From a virus: a stretch of DNA of 57,780 nucleotides. The DNA is taken from positions 1-57,780 of the IMG/VR virus record IMGVR_UViG_3300017917_001574. One strand, written 5' to 3'. A program made the position numbers and the translations under genes. Below are positions 47,136 through 57,705 of this stretch, piece after piece (the stretch's first letter is position 1; each line of letters begins with the position of its first letter). Below the pieces are notes generated by a model. That model was not told where the DNA came from. It worked only from the letters and a program-made list of their open reading frames with translations, and did not search any database.

Positions 47136-50100
47136 TTAAATGTTTTCAAACGAAGCTCCGGTTGGAGTAATGAAGAACTCAATATCGATGAACTCTAACG
47201 CCTTCGTAGGTTTTAAGTAAATTTTACCGACTAATCGATTTGCATCTAAATCTTCAGGTGTTGATGATACTGTTACACGGAAATCAAAAAGACCTCTATC
47301 TCTTCTGATTGAATCTAAAATAGGGTTAACACTATCCAAGAATTGTTGTCTAACAATTTGGTCATTTTGTTCAAACAACAATCTTACCGCTACTGCTGAA
47401 ATTAACTTACGAGCTTGAAGTAATAATCTTCTTACATTCAATCTATTAAGTGCCGAATCAGCAACTTGTAAAGTTTTGTTACCCCAAATTACGGTTCCAA
47501 CATCAGAAAAAGTTGCGATAGGGTTAATTCTACCTTGATACAATGTATCCCTATCTGTCTGTGTAAGTTTTTGTCTAGCTTTGATTGAATTTACAAGACC
47601 TCTTGTATAACCCGCCGATGCGAACCAAGGGAATGAAATATTATCAGTCAATGCTAAGTTTCTACAAACCTCACCTGTCGGTGGTAAATAAATTTGTGTA
47701 TTATTAACTGTGTCACGAACTAGTATCCAAGGATAGTAAGTTGCGGTATAGTTAGAATCAATTCCTGTGTTATCTAAGTTGTCTACCGCTTCTTGAGAAT
47801 AAATGATATCTTGAGGATTTGTTGAATCCGGTGTATACATTCTATAATCAGGTGTTGTTGCAATATATACTGAATCCGCTCTCGAGAATTGAACCATGTC
47901 TATTGCTTCCTCAACAAGATTTGAGTTATTAACATAATCAATTGCCGTTGTTGCAAACACGTTAATATTTGTAGACTCTGGATTTGAGAATGTTAAAATA
48001 CCAAGTAAATACGCATAATAATCAGTGTTAGCAAAATCTTGAGTATTGTTTTGAACAACAATTCGTTTGAATAATCCGTCACCTGTTGCGTTAGGATATC
48101 TTGAAGATGGAGATGCTCCCGCCAAATAACCTGACGCTCCTAATTGGAACCTATCTTCATTTGTTCTCCATTCTCGGTATATATCCCATCCGTCAAAACC
48201 TCCTGCAAAACATAAAGTATATTTTCTTGAGTAAATAAAGTAATAAGGATTTTCTTGAGTTTCAGGGTCATTTCTAAATTCTGCAACACCACACTCAAAT
48301 GCCGTTTGTCCACTTGACATAGAAGTGTTTGCAATTGTTACAACAGTTGCTCCAGAATCCATATGGAAACCTTTACTTAACACATTCCATGGTTGACCTT
48401 CAATATTAGGATTAGTAACCCAATTTGAAGGTGTTTGTTTACCTTTATATGTTAAAAATGACTCGTCAATTCCAAATTGAGTTGAGAACCCTAAATAACT
48501 TCTTCTAACGATATCTCCTGCGGACTGAACAGGTGCACCACCAACGTTAAAACCGAAAGGTGGATTAGAAATAACCTCACCCGGAAAATAATATTTTGTT
48601 TTAAATTTAGGGTATGGTGATGGGTAAGAATCATAATCTTGATATTCTCTTTGAGTATATCCGTAGAATCCACAAGGTAATGCGTCTATTGGTGCTTCAT
48701 CCGACATTTCAACCATTATATATTTAGATATTAGTGCGAATTCACCATTTGAAGACCCTATTTTTTTAGCAATGAAGTTATTTGATGCCGGGTCCATGTT
48801 ACAATTTGTGAATTTTTCTATCACAACAGGATTTGCATCAGTATCAAAAAAGTTTCTCACTAATACATCAAATGACATACTATTGAAAGATAGATTTGCA
48901 ATTGATACTTTAACTTCAGTGTTTGCCGAATCTCCATCAGAGATTGAAATAAATTTAAACAATTTATATACCTTATTACCTCTTAATTCTGAAACTAAAT
49001 AAGGTGTTTCCGGTGACTGGTATCTTTCTAAATTATATGCTATTGATGTTGGATTTTGACTTCTTGCATCAGGTAACTCAATTAAATTACATGATAATCC
49101 TCTAATATAACCTTGATTATATGCGTAGTCTAAAGACCCTTGGTAAGATTCCTCAACATAAATAGGGACTTCAAATCTTGATTTACCAAAATTATCCACA
49201 CCCAAGACTTTAGTAATATACTTTGAAGAAGCCGCCAATAAAGAAGTTTCAAAAGAAAATACACTATTATCCTTAGTTATACCCGACAATAGAAATGTTG
49301 CGTAAGGTGATTTTGTAATTCCTGAGTATTGTCCAGTACAAATCAATTGTAAATTATTAGGAACCCAAGTATTATTATTGTTATAATCAATCCCTACTTG
49401 ATAAACAGGTCCGTGATTCTCACTAGTACTACTATTAGTATAAAGTGATACACCTCTTGAACGGATAGTTCCAACAACCATGTTGTTAAATTCGTCATAA
49501 GCACTACCGGTAAACGTATAAGATTCTCCGATAACCGTACCTGTAAATGTGTTTGATGCACCTGAAGTTAAATTTGATACGGTATAATAGAATGAATAAC
49601 CGGTATAATTACCAGTTAAAGAATTATTATTTTGAAATTCAAAATTAGCGTAATACCAAACATCATTACTATCTGAATTTAAATCATTTTGTTCAAAATT
49701 AGCTTCACAACCATACTGACTCGCAACTCTAGAATATTGACTTGTAATATTAAAATAATCTGATTGAGGAATTGCACCATATATAACCGCAGTAGTTGCT
49801 GAAGTCGAAGGTGTATTCATTATTAAAGTTAAATATGAATTAAAATCGTCTTGTAATGTCGAAGTGCTACCATCCTCTTGTCTATATTCAACATTTAGAT
49901 TTGTCGTAACTTGGGTTGGTAGCTGACCTGAAATAAATTCAACAACACCTAATGTTGGGTCACCAGTGAATGTTACAGAGAACGATGTTCCTGAAGAAGG
50001 GTCTCCAATAGTTGTTGGGTCAACATTTGCAGTAACATTAAGAGACCAAGAAGGTCCCGCGTCATATCCCGATAAACCAAGAACTCTTGTTACAAATAAT

Positions 50101-50378
50101 TGGTTTGATTGTTGTAAATAAGATTTAGCAATATATGCCGCCTCATATTTAGGTATTTGAGTATTAATGAATTTAGTTGGTTCTGTTCCACCGAAAAACG
50201 CTTGGAACTCGTCATAATTAGTTATAAACACCGGTTCAAATGCCGGTCCTTTGATTGTTTCTCCAACAAGACCTAACGTAGTTACCCCTACACTTTGGGC
50301 TACGAAAGATAAGTCCGTTTCAGATGTGTATACACCCGGAGATACGAATACTTTTTGGTTTGCTTGTGCTGTTGCCAT
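47136..50378 (-). CDS. gp18: Contractile tail sheath protein gp18
   Basis: This is a 1080-residue protein. The N-terminus VFVSPGVYTSETDLSFVAQS (about 10-29), then ITNYDEFQAFFGGTEPTKF, is the classic sheath start. The C-terminal about 250 residues are the conserved sheath core with the segment DVGTVIWGNKTLQVADSALN, LNVRRLLLQARKLI and a final beta strand. The sheath polymerises around the tube and contracts to drive it through the envelope. T4 gp18 has 659 residues, so this protein carries about 400 extra residues in the middle (about 115-800), beta-rich and Ser/Thr/Asn-rich, probably displayed on the tail surface. A promoter-like octamer lies 33 bases upstream and a hairpin lies downstream. 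Confidence 0.95.
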   Translation of the reverse strand: MATAQANQKVFVSPGVYTSETDLSFVAQSVGVTTLGLVGETIKGPAFEPVFITNYDEFQAFFGGTEPTKFINTQIPKYEAAYIAKSYLQQSNQLFVTRVLGLSGYDAGPSWSLNVTANVDPTTIGDPSSGTSFSVTFTGDPTLGVVEFISGQLPTQVTTNLNVEYRQEDGSTSTLQDDFNSYLTLIMNTPSTSATTAVIYGAIPQSDYFNITSQYSRVASQYGCEANFEQNDLNSDSNDVWYYANFEFQNNNSLTGNYTGYSFYYTVSNLTSGASNTFTGTVIGESYTFTGSAYDEFNNMVVGTIRSRGVSLYTNSSTSENHGPVYQVGIDYNNNNTWVPNNLQLICTGQYSGITKSPYATFLLSGITKDNSVFSFETSLLAASSKYITKVLGVDNFGKSRFEVPIYVEESYQGSLDYAYNQGYIRGLSCNLIELPDARSQNPTSIAYNLERYQSPETPYLVSELRGNKVYKLFKFISISDGDSANTEVKVSIANLSFNSMSFDVLVRNFFDTDANPVVIEKFTNCNMDPASNNFIAKKIGSSNGEFALISKYIMVEMSDEAPIDALPCGFYGYTQREYQDYDSYPSPYPKFKTKYYFPGEVISNPPFGFNVGGAPVQSAGDIVRRSYLGFSTQFGIDESFLTYKGKQTPSNWVTNPNIEGQPWNVLSKGFHMDSGATVVTIANTSMSSGQTAFECGVAEFRNDPETQENPYYFIYSRKYTLCFAGGFDGWDIYREWRTNEDRFQLGASGYLAGASPSSRYPNATGDGLFKRIVVQNNTQDFANTDYYAYLLGILTFSNPESTNINVFATTAIDYVNNSNLVEEAIDMVQFSRADSVYIATTPDYRMYTPDSTNPQDIIYSQEAVDNLDNTGIDSNYTATYYPWILVRDTVNNTQIYLPPTGEVCRNLALTDNISFPWFASAGYTRGLVNSIKARQKLTQTDRDTLYQGRINPIATFSDVGTVIWGNKTLQVADSALNRLNVRRLLLQARKLISAVAVRLLFEQNDQIVRQQFLDSVNPILDSIRRDRGLFDFRVTVSSTPEDLDANRLVGKIYLKPTKALEFIDIEFFITPTGASFENI

Positions 50379-51962: not shown

Positions 51963-52334
51963 TTATAATTTTTTCCATGTTTTTACATAAATCTCAAAAT
52001 CCAACGGAACACCATATCTTGTAATATTAACATTAAACATATTATCTAAATTTCTAATAATTGTTCTTCTCATATTAAATTCATGTTCTTTGGGAATTTT
52101 ATTAAAATAAAATTTTAAAAGATATTCTTCTGTTGAATAATTTTCAACTCCATAATGAACCTTTTTAGTTATAACCTCAATATCGAGCAAATCTTCGGAG
52201 AATGAACCTTTAAAAAATTTAATAATACTTGGTAGTAATTTTTCAATATACTTTTTATTATCTTCAATTTTTTTAATTCTATCCTCATTGGGATTATCCA
52301 TCTCTCTTAAAATTTTGCGAATAATATCTTCCAT
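51963..52334 (-). CDS. Small neck-region protein, unknown function
   Basis: This 123-residue charged protein has a helical N-terminal half (EDIIRKILREMDNPNEDRIK) followed by mixed alpha/beta with KVHYGVENYSTEEYLLKFYF. It is packed 3-4 bases from both neighbours within the neck/tail-completion operon, so it probably takes part in head-tail joining or tail completion. No family is recognised. Confidence 0.6.
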   Translation of the reverse strand: MEDIIRKILREMDNPNEDRIKKIEDNKKYIEKLLPSIIKFFKGSFSEDLLDIEVITKKVHYGVENYSTEEYLLKFYFNKIPKEHEFNMRRTIIRNLDNMFNVNITRYGVPLDFEIYVKTWKKL

Positions 52335-53230: not shown

Positions 53231-54982
53231 ATGGAAATAAGTTTAGAATCAAAGGCGATGGCGATTCTTGAAACCTATGAAGGTGGTAATAACTATTTGT
53301 TGGAGTTGAGACGTAAGTCACAAATTAACAAAAAATTTTACCCTACAAGAAGCCAATCGGACTATATAATTTCATTCCACGACAAACAACCAAAGGTTGC
53401 GAGAAAGTGGGTGATTCTTGATGCTTATTTTGCTCAAAAATTGGCAGACGATAAACTATACACTGAAATTCCTCAAAAAGTTTGGGTTGAGAAATTATTG
53501 GCGGATAAAGAAAAGGCATATCATATTTGGGGTAAAGTTTTTGAGAATGAGGAACTCCACGATTTTTGGTTACCGAAAGCTGCAATCATAAAAGATAATT
53601 CAGTCCAAAATGTTGTGGTTGATTATTCGAAATATTCCCATAGACCTCCATTGGAACATCAAAAAGAAGCAATCCAAAAATTACTTGAAAATAAGAAATT
53701 TATATTGGCCGACGACATGGGACTCGGAAAAACTACCTCAACAATCATTGGGGCATTGGAAAGTGGGTCTAAAAAAATATTGATTATTTGTCCTGCAACA
53801 TTGAAGATTAACTGGAAACGAGAAATTGAAAATTATTCTGACAGGTCAATCTTCATTGCCGAAAGTAAGAATTTCTCAACGGAACACGATTTTGTTATTG
53901 CGAATTATGATATTATCAAAAATTTTCATGACCCAAAAAATAAAGAGGAGTCGTTAATTCTTAACTCCAAATTTGATTTGGTAATTGTGGATGAAGCACA
54001 CTACATTAAAAACGCAACCGCTCAAAGAACAAAACTTATTAACGACCTTGTTAAAAACACTGAAAGGTTATGGTTATTAACAGGAACACCAATGACTTCA
54101 AGACCGATGGATTATTTTAATTTATTGAGTTTAGTTGATTCACCTGTCGCAAAGAACTGGATGGCTTACGCAATAAGATATTGTGCCGGATATCAATTCA
54201 AAGTCGGAAACCGAAAAGTTTGGAACATAACAGGTGCATCTAATCTTGAAGAATTAAGAGAAAGAACATCAGGAACCATTTTGAGACGATTAAAAGAGAA
54301 TGTTCTTGATTTACCCGAAAAAATTATCACTCCGGTTTATTTGAAATTAAAATCCAAAGCATATGAAGATGTGATGGGAGAATATTATGATTGGTATGAT
54401 AAAAACCCTGAAGAGTCCAAATCTTTGACGGTTCAATTTTCAAAATTGACAAAAGTAAGACAAATTATTGCTGACGAAAAAATACAACAAACAATTGAAA
54501 TTGCTGAGAATATTATTGAACAAGGAAAAAAAGTCATCATCTTTTGTAATTTTACCGATTCATTAAATAAAATTGTTGAGCATTTTGGTAAAACTGCGGT
54601 TAAACTCGATGGGTCAATGGCTCAACACGAAAGACAATATAGTGTTGACCAATTCCAAGAAAATGAAAAAATTAAAGTTTTTGTTGGGAACATAAAGGCG
54701 GCTGGAACCGGAATTACCTTAACTGCCGGTGAAGCCGCAATTTTCAACGACTTATCATTTTTACCTTCAGACCACGCACAGGCTGAAGATAGAAGTTATC
54801 GTTATGGTCAAAAAAATAATGTTTTAGTTTACTATCCTATCTTCGAAAATACCATTGAGGGAATCATCTATGATATTTTAAATAACAAAAAACAAGTGAT
54901 TGCAACTGTTATGGGAGACAATCAAAATCCTGCTGATGTTGCGGAAGAAATTCTAAAAAGAATTAATCATTTGAGAAAATAA
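53231..54982 (+). CDS. SNF2-type DNA helicase/translocase
   Basis: This 583-residue superfamily 2 protein of the SNF2 branch resembles SMARCAL1-type annealing helicases. After an about 130-residue N-terminal region come the Q-like lead-in PPLEHQKEAIQKLLENKKF, Walker A LADDMGLGKTTSTI (about 158-171), motif Ia ILIICPATLKINWKRE, DEAH box LVIVDEAHYIKN (about 249-260), motif III LLTGTPMTSRPMDYF, and in the second RecA lobe LDGSMAQHERQ, then GTGITLTAG and motif VI AEDRSYRYGQKNNVLVYY. All core motifs are intact. In T4 the UvsW helicase handles branched recombination intermediates. This enzyme may serve that role, which is inference. It is the first plus-strand gene of the right-hand cluster. Confidence 0.92.
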   Translation: MEISLESKAMAILETYEGGNNYLLELRRKSQINKKFYPTRSQSDYIISFHDKQPKVARKWVILDAYFAQKLADDKLYTEIPQKVWVEKLLADKEKAYHIWGKVFENEELHDFWLPKAAIIKDNSVQNVVVDYSKYSHRPPLEHQKEAIQKLLENKKFILADDMGLGKTTSTIIGALESGSKKILIICPATLKINWKREIENYSDRSIFIAESKNFSTEHDFVIANYDIIKNFHDPKNKEESLILNSKFDLVIVDEAHYIKNATAQRTKLINDLVKNTERLWLLTGTPMTSRPMDYFNLLSLVDSPVAKNWMAYAIRYCAGYQFKVGNRKVWNITGASNLEELRERTSGTILRRLKENVLDLPEKIITPVYLKLKSKAYEDVMGEYYDWYDKNPEESKSLTVQFSKLTKVRQIIADEKIQQTIEIAENIIEQGKKVIIFCNFTDSLNKIVEHFGKTAVKLDGSMAQHERQYSVDQFQENEKIKVFVGNIKAAGTGITLTAGEAAIFNDLSFLPSDHAQAEDRSYRYGQKNNVLVYYPIFENTIEGIIYDILNNKKQVIATVMGDNQNPADVAEEILKRINHLRK

Positions 54983-54994
54983 TGAAATCCGGAT

Positions 54995-55002
54995 TATTTA
55001 TA
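54995..55002 (+). promoter_or_regulatory. Candidate promoter octamer TATTTATA upstream of the SOD fusion gene
   Basis: The plus-strand octamer lies 21 bases before the ATG. It is enclosed by a short inverted repeat (GGATTAT at 54991-54997 and ATAATCC at 55011-55017), which could be an operator or a small hairpin. Confidence 0.45.
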
Positions 55003-55023
55003 TGTAATGGATAATCCAAATAT

Positions 55024-56559
55024 ATGAAAAAAACACAAGAGAAAATCCAACAACTTGAATTACAAATACTTGAATCACAAGTTACAAAAGAAAAAGAGTT
55101 GTTGATTACAGAAATGAAAAAAATAGGGATAGAAAAATTACCTTATGCCTATTCAGCCTTGAAGACGTTTATTGACGCAGAGACAATGAACTTCCACTAT
55201 AATAAACATTATAAAGGTTACGTAGACAAATTAAACGCCGCATTATCAAAAAAGAAATATGGTGATTTAGATTTGGAAAAAATAATTAAAACAATCAGCC
55301 GTTTCGACAAAACAATCAGAAATAATGCCGGTGGTGCATTTAACCACGCGTTGTTTTGGAATATGTTGACACCTGAACCAAAAAAACTAGAAGGAGAACT
55401 TTATAAAAAGATTACCAAACAATGGGGAACTTTTAGTAATTTCAAAAAAGAATTTGAGAAACAAGCCAAAGAACGATTCGGGTCCGGATGGGTATGGTTG
55501 GTTTTAACTTCCAAAAATACTTTAAAGATTATGTCTACTCCAAACCAAGACAATCCATTAATGAATGTGATTGAAGGTGGTGGGTTTCCATTGCTAGGTT
55601 TGGACTTATGGGAACACGCATATTACCTAAAGTATAAAAATAAAAGAGATGAATACATCACAAACTTTTGGAAAGTTGTTAATTGGGATTTTGTTAGTAA
55701 GATGTATAAAATGAAAATTGAAACTAAATTGGCTGAATCAACTAAAATGAAACAAGTTTTAAGTGAGGGGAAATCTGAAGCGTGTTCAAAATCGGATGAA
55801 TTTTTCTACAAACAATTATACAAAGATAACCAAGAGGTTAAATGGGTTTATATGCGTGGAATAAATAAGATTCTTAGAGATGTTTTCCCTAACAATTATG
55901 TTGAGACCCCCGGAGAAGGTTTGGTGTCAGGATTTTATAATATAGAAAAACCAGGTAGGTCTGCGATAAATAAACTTAATACAAACTATTCAACCTTTTG
56001 TGTATTACTTAATGATATAAATCAGGTGATTAACACCATACCAAATAAACCCCCAATTAGTTTTAAAAATAAAACACCAAAAGAACAAATTAAAGAAACT
56101 GAAAGATTTATTAATGCAATCAATTATTTTAAGACAAGAATTTTTGATGTGAATAGTTCAACTTTTAAAACACTACTAAGCGTATTAGTCGATAAAGATG
56201 AACAAGGTAATCTTAGAGAAAAGATAACATCGGCAATTATTAAAAGACACTTAAAGGACAGGGTTGATGTAGATATTATTGCGGGGGCAGGTAGTTCTCA
56301 AGATGTTGGTGGAGTCGACCTTAAAGTCACTATAGATGGAATCACAAAAACTGCTCAAGTTAAAGGTTATGAATCAATAACCACTAATGGCGACATAATA
56401 ATTGTCGACAGTGATATTGGAAAATATAAAGCCGATGTTGTCGACTTAATGATATTTCAAAAAGGAAAAAAAGTTTGGGTATTTGATAATACAAATAAAA
56501 GAATATCTAATGGAAAATATATCTTTCCATCAGATGATTTATTATTTGAAATACAATAA
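55024..56559 (+). CDS. Mn-type superoxide dismutase fused to a PD-(D/E)XK nuclease-like domain
   Basis: This is a 511-residue fusion. Residues 1-35 are a charged helix. Residues about 36-230 are a complete Fe/Mn superoxide dismutase: metal ligands His58 (TMNFHYNKHYKGY), His108 (NNAGGAFNHALFW), Asp194 and His198 (LGLDLWEHAYYLK), gateway Tyr66, and Gln175 (TPNQDNPL). Gly104 instead of Gln in the N-terminal half points to the Mn type. Residues about 250-385 are a helical domain of unknown family. Residues about 395-511 look like a PD-(D/E)XK nuclease: Glu399, Asp432 (GGVDLKV) and Gln445-x-Lys447 (AQVKGYE). The dismutase converts superoxide to peroxide and oxygen. The nuclease call is by motif only. 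It lies next to a neck gene with a promoter-like octamer 21 bases upstream. Confidence 0.85.
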   Translation: MKKTQEKIQQLELQILESQVTKEKELLITEMKKIGIEKLPYAYSALKTFIDAETMNFHYNKHYKGYVDKLNAALSKKKYGDLDLEKIIKTISRFDKTIRNNAGGAFNHALFWNMLTPEPKKLEGELYKKITKQWGTFSNFKKEFEKQAKERFGSGWVWLVLTSKNTLKIMSTPNQDNPLMNVIEGGGFPLLGLDLWEHAYYLKYKNKRDEYITNFWKVVNWDFVSKMYKMKIETKLAESTKMKQVLSEGKSEACSKSDEFFYKQLYKDNQEVKWVYMRGINKILRDVFPNNYVETPGEGLVSGFYNIEKPGRSAINKLNTNYSTFCVLLNDINQVINTIPNKPPISFKNKTPKEQIKETERFINAINYFKTRIFDVNSSTFKTLLSVLVDKDEQGNLREKITSAIIKRHLKDRVDVDIIAGAGSSQDVGGVDLKVTIDGITKTAQVKGYESITTNGDIIIVDSDIGKYKADVVDLMIFQKGKKVWVFDNTNKRISNGKYIFPSDDLLFEIQ

Positions 56560-56583: not shown

Positions 56584-57705
56584 ATGTCAGTAATTCCAGA
56601 ACCAGAAAGGTCAAAAATTTATACAAGAGTTAAACACTTATTGGGGGCACCAATTAGAAGTGTTGAAATTGAAGATGAAATGATGGATTCATTAATGGAA
56701 CTATCTATTCAAGATTATGAGCAATATATCTTAAATTGGTTAATTGATAGTCAATGGGTTAACTTGGTCAATTTGAATATGACTGAAAAGTCTGTTGCAA
56801 ACGCATTGATTACTCGAACAATGGATTTTGAACAACAATTTTCATATTCCTATTCAAAAATTGTTGGTCTTCAAGCTCAAGGTCCTTGGGTTTTAAAAAA
56901 AGACTATATTATACTTGAACGAGATAAACAAGATTATGAAATACCTGCAGGTCGTGAAATTAATGAAGTCTTATGGTTTAGTAATCAACCATGGACGGCG
57001 TTTGGACTTGGTGGTATTGGTGGTTTTGGTGGTGTAGGTTTAGGTGCCAATGAAGCAGGGTTCGCTCAAATGGGATACCAAGGTTCATATTTTATGATGT
57101 CGGGGTTTGATTATTTGATAAGAATGCAACAATCTAATATCCTAAATAGAATTCTTGGTGGTTCATTAACATATCGAATTACCGCACTCCCTGACGGAAA
57201 GAAAAATTTACAACTTTACAATGCTCCGGGTAATAATTTTAATTGGAGTTCTTATAGTAACTATGTTGGTAAAGCGGTTTGGTATTGGTATTATGACACA
57301 ACACCTGATAGTAGAGCAGATTGTTTAAAGAACAATCCTGATGTTATTAAATTACCAAGCGATGTTCCACTTGAGGAATTAACTTGGTCTGATTTAAATG
57401 TTCCTGCAAAACAATGGGTTAGAAGATGGTTTACCGCTTATGTCAAAGAAACATTGGGTAGAGTAAGAGGAAAGTATAGTGGTAATTTAAAAACGCCTGA
57501 TTCTGAAATCACGATGGATTATACAAGTTTATTAACTGAGGGTAAAGATGAGAAAACAAAATTACTGGAAGAACTTACCGGACCTGAAGGTTGGTTAACA
57601 AGATTAAGACCTGAAAAAGTGATGGAGAAAGAAGCGTTACTTGCAGAAAACTTAAACAAACAAATGAAATTTAGAGCAATGCCTCGCCAAATATACGTAA
57701 TTTAA
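56584..57705 (+). CDS. gp13: Neck protein, gp13-like
   Basis: This is a 373-residue protein (T4 gp13 has 309). The N-terminal part has the VKHLLGAPIRSVEIEDEMMD pattern followed by LSIQDYEQYILNWL. The C-terminal part has KQWVRRWFTAYVKETLGRVR, then GKYSG, then LLTEGKDEKTKLLEELTG. In T4-like gp13 proteins the same order (short helical start with LG.P...EI.D, and WV+.Y..A..K...G...GKFSG...) is seen. A Gly/Phe-rich loop (GLGGIGGFGGVGLGANEAGF, about 140-160) is an insertion. gp13 seals the filled head with gp14 and joins the tail. The gene after it starts 3 bases downstream. Confidence 0.7.
   Translation: MSVIPEPERSKIYTRVKHLLGAPIRSVEIEDEMMDSLMELSIQDYEQYILNWLIDSQWVNLVNLNMTEKSVANALITRTMDFEQQFSYSYSKIVGLQAQGPWVLKKDYIILERDKQDYEIPAGREINEVLWFSNQPWTAFGLGGIGGFGGVGLGANEAGFAQMGYQGSYFMMSGFDYLIRMQQSNILNRILGGSLTYRITALPDGKKNLQLYNAPGNNFNWSSYSNYVGKAVWYWYYDTTPDSRADCLKNNPDVIKLPSDVPLEELTWSDLNVPAKQWVRRWFTAYVKETLGRVRGKYSGNLKTPDSEITMDYTSLLTEGKDEKTKLLEELTGPEGWLTRLRPEKVMEKEALLAENLNKQMKFRAMPRQIYVI

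Follow-up and report, generated by a model that had tools for sequence, protein, structure and literature searches.

Precedents for the packaging that is proposed below come from an algal virus and from T4. The chlorovirus PBCV-1 packages a superoxide dismutase (SOD) that is made late, which is a precedent for a packaged viral SOD, and lower superoxide has been reported in cells infected by it (PMC7019647). The internal proteins of T4 are a very diverse set that have a capsid targeting sequence alone in common (PMC3012670), and the T4 prohead protease gp21 cuts after L/I-X-E (PMC9026906). No SOD-nuclease fusion was found in the open-access literature, in agreement with the original prediction, which knew of none, and it is such a fusion that we describe here.

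The DNA examined is a 57,780-nucleotide fragment of a phage genome (IMG/VR record IMGVR_UViG_3300017917_001574, positions 1 to 57,780; called "the window" below). Its features near the fusion gene are listed in Table 1. The open reading frame has the limits that were originally predicted and its 511 codons are uninterrupted; its product is almost certainly a SOD fused to a PD-(D/E)XK nuclease. A scan of IMG/VR with the fusion protein gave 208 relatives, and among the best 80 at least 75 are full length and 61–73% identical; a scan with the C-terminal domain alone gave at least 406, and the readable loci among the matches listed contain the entire fusion. A third scan brought in remoter fusions (L333–L336) that are 48–52% identical and have the same gene order. 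The same domain pair thus occurs in other phage genomes, in 71 distinct full-length fusions from IMG/VR contigs that are 48–73% identical and preserve the frame. A stop or frameshift between the SOD and C-terminal parts was looked for and is absent, and none of 76 translated IMG/VR fusions has an internal stop. An assembly artefact, a chimera or chance is ruled out by the 71 distinct in-frame relatives and their common synteny. Twelve residues are invariant in all 71 (H58, H62, Y66, H108, Q175, D194, H198, E399, D427, D432, Q445 and K447). The dN/dS ratio is 0.038 for the SOD; for the C-terminal domain it is 0.18 in one half and 0.19 in the other. Both domains are therefore under purifying selection and both are presumably used. 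The core of the original prediction, that a phage late-gene region encodes a complete Fe/Mn-type SOD joined to what is probably a PD-(D/E)XK nuclease, is borne out, as families, fold, invariant residues, synteny and the octamer TATTTATA (below) all agree.

Table 1. Features of the fusion gene and its immediate surroundings (coordinates in the window; residues numbered in the 511-residue protein)
Feature	Coordinates	Strand	Basis
SNF2-family helicase, directly upstream, conserved neighbour	53231..54982	+	Pfam PF00176, PHROG 62; synteny
Conserved hairpin, 6 bases short of the start codon, containing octamer TATTTATA at 54995-55002	54991..55017	+	Folding, alignment of relatives
SOD-nuclease fusion gene, 511 aa	55024..56559	+	Open from ATG to stop; 71 distinct full-length in-frame relatives
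N-terminal helical extension, residues 1-30, ending in I/L-x-E30 immediately ahead of the SOD; candidate for a targeting propeptide that has a prohead-protease site	55024..55113	+	E30 in 71/71
Mn-type SOD domain, residues 37-229, ligands His58/His108/Asp194/His198	55132..55710	+	Pfam, PDB sequences, invariant ligands, dN/dS 0.04
Linker, residues 230-248, with L/I-x-E238 and L/I/M-x-E248; capsid-targeting-like peptide	55711..55767	+	Alignment; low-confidence stretch of model
Leu-Ser-Glu248 / Gly249, candidate inter-enzyme cleavage site, at left edge of swapped cassette	55759..55770	+	E in 71/71; DNA identity falls at about 55760
Segment replaced as a cassette relative to nearest relatives L001-L003	55760..56559	+	Step in DNA identity; dS contrast
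Helical half of C-terminal domain (residues 250-380; conserved motif RS.IN.LNTNY)	55771..56163	+	Sequence comparison, AlphaFold2 fold
Probable PD-(D/E)XK nuclease core, residues 395-511, with E399/D427/D432/Q445/K447	56206..56556	+	Fold; invariant in 71 fusions and stand-alone homologue
Head-tail adaptor (Ad2) gene, directly downstream, conserved neighbour	56584..57705	+	PHROG 211, E 2e-10; synteny

The SOD domain is matched by Pfam Sod_Fe_N at residues 37–115 (E 3.6e-23; 82.3 bits against a cut-off of 27) and Sod_Fe_C at residues 123–226 (E 2.5e-40; 137.1 bits against a cut-off of 20.9), and its best solved relatives among PDB sequences are Mn-SODs (E about 1e-58). The complete core that had been read from the window, with its four metal ligands, Tyr66 and Gln175, is in place and unvarying across the 71 distinct sequences, and the prediction of a catalytically competent Mn/Fe SOD is supported by these comparisons. 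A decayed SOD kept only as a scaffold is unlikely, with a dN/dS of 0.04 and every ligand retained. The closest cellular SODs are mostly from Bacteroidota and are about 50% identical. Separately, the unannotated "phage" records H1 and H3–H9 (for example OR851122 and OR850395) contain SOD genes of the ordinary bacterial type; these deposits have probably been contaminated with host DNA.

No family in Pfam, NCBIfam or PHROGs matched the C-terminal 263 residues above noise. An AlphaFold2 model of this domain, built with 35 fusion sequences as input, has a mean pLDDT of 89 and consists of a helical region and an alpha/beta core, in the order helices, long helix with E399, strand, strand starting at D432, and long strand with Q445 and K447. 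Glu399, Asp432 and Gln445-x-Lys447, which had been proposed as nuclease residues from the window alone, thus lie on the expected elements. The top PDB match in Foldseek, a search that probed mostly the nuclease core and little of the helical half (as did the BFVD search below), was the homing endonuclease I-Ssp6803I (E 2e-3, probability 1.0), with the resolvase Hjc also among the best. Structural re-alignment placed Hjc first (2wcw, Z 8.4 over 104 residues, 3.6 Å, 11% identity), followed by SPARDA, NhoI, I-Ssp6803I and RecU, so that the fold neighbours include Holliday junction resolvases, restriction enzymes and the SPARDA nuclease. These matches are distant, with middling Z values of 7–8 and no accompanying sequence match in Pfam or the PDB, yet nearly all the top rows belong to the PD-(D/E)XK superfamily. 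A non-nuclease C-terminus is ruled out by the fold and the invariant residues, and we regard the domain as a probable PD-(D/E)XK nuclease of a family that has no name in Pfam, PHROGs or NCBIfam. That it is instead a non-catalytic DNA-binding relic that anchors the SOD to DNA is very improbable, as E399, D427, D432, Q445 and K447 remain invariant at 28–50% identity.

The fold matches bear on a further possibility, that the fusion is a DNA-branch resolvase that, like T4 endonuclease VII, would clear recombination junctions ahead of packaging, acting together with the SNF2 helicase, while the SOD would mainly dimerise or protect it. The highest-ranked re-aligned structures are indeed Holliday junction resolvases, and a SNF2 helicase gene always adjoins the fusion gene. 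However, a Z of about 8 against Hjc indicates only the common PD-(D/E)XK core, and the full set of SOD catalytic residues under strong constraint suggests that the SOD is more than a scaffold. The cassette replacement and rapid divergence of the nuclease (below) are also unexpected here, since resolvases read DNA shape, and we consider this explanation unlikely.

The nuclease domain is found in several architectures: in the SOD fusion, as a stand-alone protein and within a 1113-residue marine protein. The stand-alone homologue, which has no SOD, is encoded at L081:7752-8624 in the 735-kb phage LR756501, near a PhoH-like gene; it matches the domain profile with E 1.3e-18, is 28% identical to the domain in the window, has the same catalytic set and lacks an (I/L)xE linker. 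When it was used as query, no homologue of this form was found in IMG/VR. BFVD contains the 1113-residue marine phage protein A0A8D9CCA0, which has the C-terminal domain (TM 0.81), and the 501-residue A0A6J5L953 of an uncultured Caudovirales phage, which carries the same domain (TM 0.88) and is labelled plainly "superoxide dismutase" in UniProt. A search of one genome each of 84,980 bacterial and archaeal species found no relative of the domain within the method's reach, and to that extent a bacterial origin is rejected. Membership in Pfam DUF6602 or MC4 was also rejected, since the matches are weak, reaching at best 7e-4 and 4e-5 and that in one member each, and cover mainly the helices, and so was membership in a known defence system, for which PADLOC matches were weak (best 2.7e-4) and to a family that differed from member to member.

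Comparison of the window with its nearest relatives (L001–L003) gave a DNA identity that is mostly 92–100% from the end of the helicase gene through the SOD, and again where the following gene begins, and about 45–72% from about position 55760 to the stop codon. The drop at the linker is from about 96% to about 58%, and identity recovers at the stop codon. Between the window and L002, dS is 0.28 for the SOD and 1.8 or saturated for the C-terminal domain, which means that the C-terminal part was replaced rather than having drifted rapidly; L047 shows a comparable identity step against L024 and L005. Among 55 fusions the SOD has a median identity of 0.88 and the two neighbouring genes have 0.86 and 0.85, against 0.64 in each half of the C-terminal domain. 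C-terminal identity in these 55 mostly tracks that of the flanks (correlation 0.70–0.82), and such exchange is therefore occasional, added to an evolution that is faster in any case. Judged from these alignments, the nuclease domain diverges far more rapidly than the sequence around it, and that of the window has been swapped as a cassette.

Such a sharply bounded replaced tract between near-identical flanks is what might be left by a homing-type or rival-excluding nuclease, of which each allele would cut the corresponding region of co-infecting relatives and be copied into the break, with the SOD gene serving as a safe harbour, and the leading Foldseek match is itself a homing endonuclease. 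The domain is, however, present in every relative of the clade that was examined, and divergence that mostly follows the flanks makes exchange occasional, so that homing appears quite improbable.

The gene's upstream region and neighbours suggest late expression. The promoter-like octamer that had been noticed before the gene, TATTTATA, is common to other late genes: it lies within 45 bases upstream, in the sense orientation, of 8 of the 33 genes in the window, where about 0.2 are expected, and of none in the reverse sense. The genes that it precedes start at 2316, 9223, 20820, 29123, 37784, 42790 and 44670 (−) and at 55024 (+). On the opposite strand it reads as the T4 late motif TATAAATA and, on these sequence grounds, it is likely to be a phage late promoter. 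The hairpin that contains it has a folding energy of −10.3 kcal/mol (z −2.7), and its stem persists in distant relatives with some paired changes (for example GGATTAT/ATAATCC to GGCTTAT/ATAAGCC in L333), giving a thin covariation support of two pairs.

On the contigs of its relatives the fusion gene always has the same two flanking genes, for the SNF2 helicase and for the head-tail adaptor, the latter being the adjoining neck gene of the original prediction, and the order of a tail sheath gene and small genes on the opposite strand, helicase, fusion and adaptor extends to L333–L336. One relative has an insertion, a 530-residue open reading frame between helicase and fusion (L152:1906-3581). 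The tail sheath protein of the window (47136-50378, − strand) is unusually long at 1080 residues, and a large extension or insertion is likely because only its C-terminal part matches Phage_sheath families. A 182-kb relative, G001, encodes a Peptidase_S77 protease (E 1.7e-23) and a Gp23 capsid protein (E 1.5e-71), neither of which is encoded in the window, itself a fragment, together with a T4-type portal and a T4-type terminase. At about 42% identity, Microcystis phage Mel-JY01 and Flavobacterium phage immuto have the capsid proteins closest to that of G001 among named isolates; searches of these two phages, the nearest cultured T4-like ones, found neither the SOD nor the nuclease, and the same kind of search with the nuclease profile did detect the LR756501 homologue. 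The fusion clade is one of T4-like phages whose hosts are probably freshwater Bacteroidota.

If a gp21-type protease acts in these phages, the fusion has candidate sites for it by the L/I-X-E rule of T4 gp21 (PMC9026906). The 511-residue alignment has four near-invariant (I/L/M)-x-E columns: E30 lies before the SOD, E238 and E248 lie between the SOD and the nuclease, and E197 is inside the SOD fold. E30 is present in 71 of 71 fusions, with I, L or M two positions earlier in 98.6%, and the N-terminal extension that it ends forms a helix (residues 2–34) in the full-length model. E30 is mostly followed by Met, perhaps an uncommon residue at a gp21 site; E248 is followed by G in 54 fusions, A in 11, S in 5 and E in 1. 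The longest run of low confidence in the full-length model covers residues 235–250, as expected for a flexible tether; the pTM of that model, 0.49, is too weak for the arrangement of the domains to be read from it. The linkers contain three (I/L/M)xE motifs where 0.53 are expected from the flanking proteins (P about 0.017), a modest enrichment of a short motif that is suggestive of prohead-protease sites; the conservation of E238 and E248 could alternatively reflect the needs of a helix or an interface.

Candidate processing sites are also seen in other proteins of the clade. The G001 capsid protein has LINE/A (a slash marks the position after the Glu), conserved in 31 of 31 compared, and the counterpart site in T4 gp23 is FLTE/AE. 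A further G001 protein has an N-terminus, KLTESDITRLVKRVLSE/Q, that is similar to the fusion linker, KLAESTKMKQVLSE/G. Small proteins encoded at 51963-52334 (−) in the window and at L162:10576-11043 and L163:11577-12344 in G001 have starts that resemble capsid-targeting propeptides (such as MEDIIRKILRE, MKTVKLTESDITRLVKRVLSE and MKELIRKILLE). A loose propeptide motif occurs at 18 of 128 open reading frame N-termini, where about 4 are expected, and the proteins with such N-termini are a possible catalogue of packaged proteins.

The reading that we prefer, with a probability of roughly 0.4, is that the fusion is head-packaged cargo from which the prohead protease frees the SOD and the nuclease, both of which would then be injected. 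The fusion would be made late, alongside the head and neck proteins, and would enter the prohead core by means of its helical N-terminal and linker peptides. The S77 (T4 gp21-type) protease would cut on the C-terminal side of E30 and E248, E238 being a further site, and so free a SOD dimer and the nuclease inside the capsid. Once both enzymes had been injected along with the genome, superoxide arising in the infected cell would be cleared by the SOD, and the nuclease would cut host, plasmid or rival-phage DNA with a specificity that varies by allele. The two enzymes, the constraint on them, the swapping, the motifs and the clade's protease are the parts of this scheme that come from sequence or prediction. 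The (I/L)xE motifs in both linkers and the late head-gene setting favour packaging or injection; against packaging, the fusion gene adjoins a helicase and a neck gene and not the core, protease and capsid genes, which in G001 are about 50 kb away. A tentative extension, perhaps half as likely to be right as wrong, is that the protein is a polyprotein whose SOD and hypervariable nuclease are split and co-injected, and which thereby lets infection begin with redox protection and an allele-specific attack on the DNA of the host or of competitors. The earlier suggestion that redox chemistry is mechanistically linked to DNA cleavage is unsupported here, and the predicted cut between the domains would argue against it.

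The fusion could also act uncut, as a bifunctional enzyme late in the infected cell, its SOD shielding DNA against superoxide during replication and packaging and its tethered nuclease degrading host DNA or trimming phage DNA. The gene is a single intact reading frame everywhere and has a late promoter-like motif upstream, and the annotated phage SODs that we inspected are stand-alone and lie in auxiliary regions, all of which would fit. This explanation nonetheless leaves the invariant (I/L)xE motifs in two otherwise variable linkers unaccounted for, sits poorly with a nuclease that is swapped independently of the SOD, and seems to us doubtful.

Whatever its mode of action, the fusion is a conserved gene of a widespread environmental (freshwater) phage clade and not a feature of one contig, and it adds a PD-(D/E)XK family that is nameless in the profile libraries searched. 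It provides a concrete case for superoxide management by phages, and the exchange of nuclease halves suggests an arms race with a target that can be sought. Packaging of the kind proposed above would suggest a route by which a T4-like phage could load two enzymes from one gene via its prohead protease.

Compared with known systems, what is new is that a SOD and a nuclease are joined in this way, that the nuclease belongs to an unnamed family, and that the protein has a candidate cleavage inside it; the SOD and the nuclease are each of known kinds. The SOD resembles bacterial Mn/Fe SODs (SodA/SodB) in its whole catalytic domain, ligands, Gln175 and gateway Tyr, and differs from them in having a nuclease, a 30-residue N-terminal extension and a place in a phage late operon. 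It shares the Fe/Mn SOD domain with SODs of Pseudomonas phages PA5oct and Callisto and Vibrio phage 2.275.O, but those that we inspected are stand-alone proteins of about 180–190 residues encoded among chaperone, protease or translation genes. The nuclease has the core fold and the E, D, QxK order of Hjc, I-Ssp6803I and other PD-(D/E)XK nucleases; unlike Hjc and I-Ssp6803I, it has an extra helical half of 130 residues, a SOD partner and no sequence match to a solved family. The LR756501 protein and A0A8D9CCA0 have the same C-terminal domain, in the former case without a SOD. The PBCV-1 Cu/Zn SOD (A245R) is likewise a late viral SOD and is virion-packaged (PMC7019647), but it belongs to an unrelated class, comes from an algal virus and has no nuclease, and packaging of the fusion is put forward here only as a conjecture. 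T4 IPI-III and Alt are similar in their candidate L/I-x-E sites, late T4-type head setting and variable cargo behind conserved targeting parts (PMC3012670, PMC9026906); the fusion, for which no homology to them is claimed and whose packaging is proposed, differs in that a second enzyme precedes the site.
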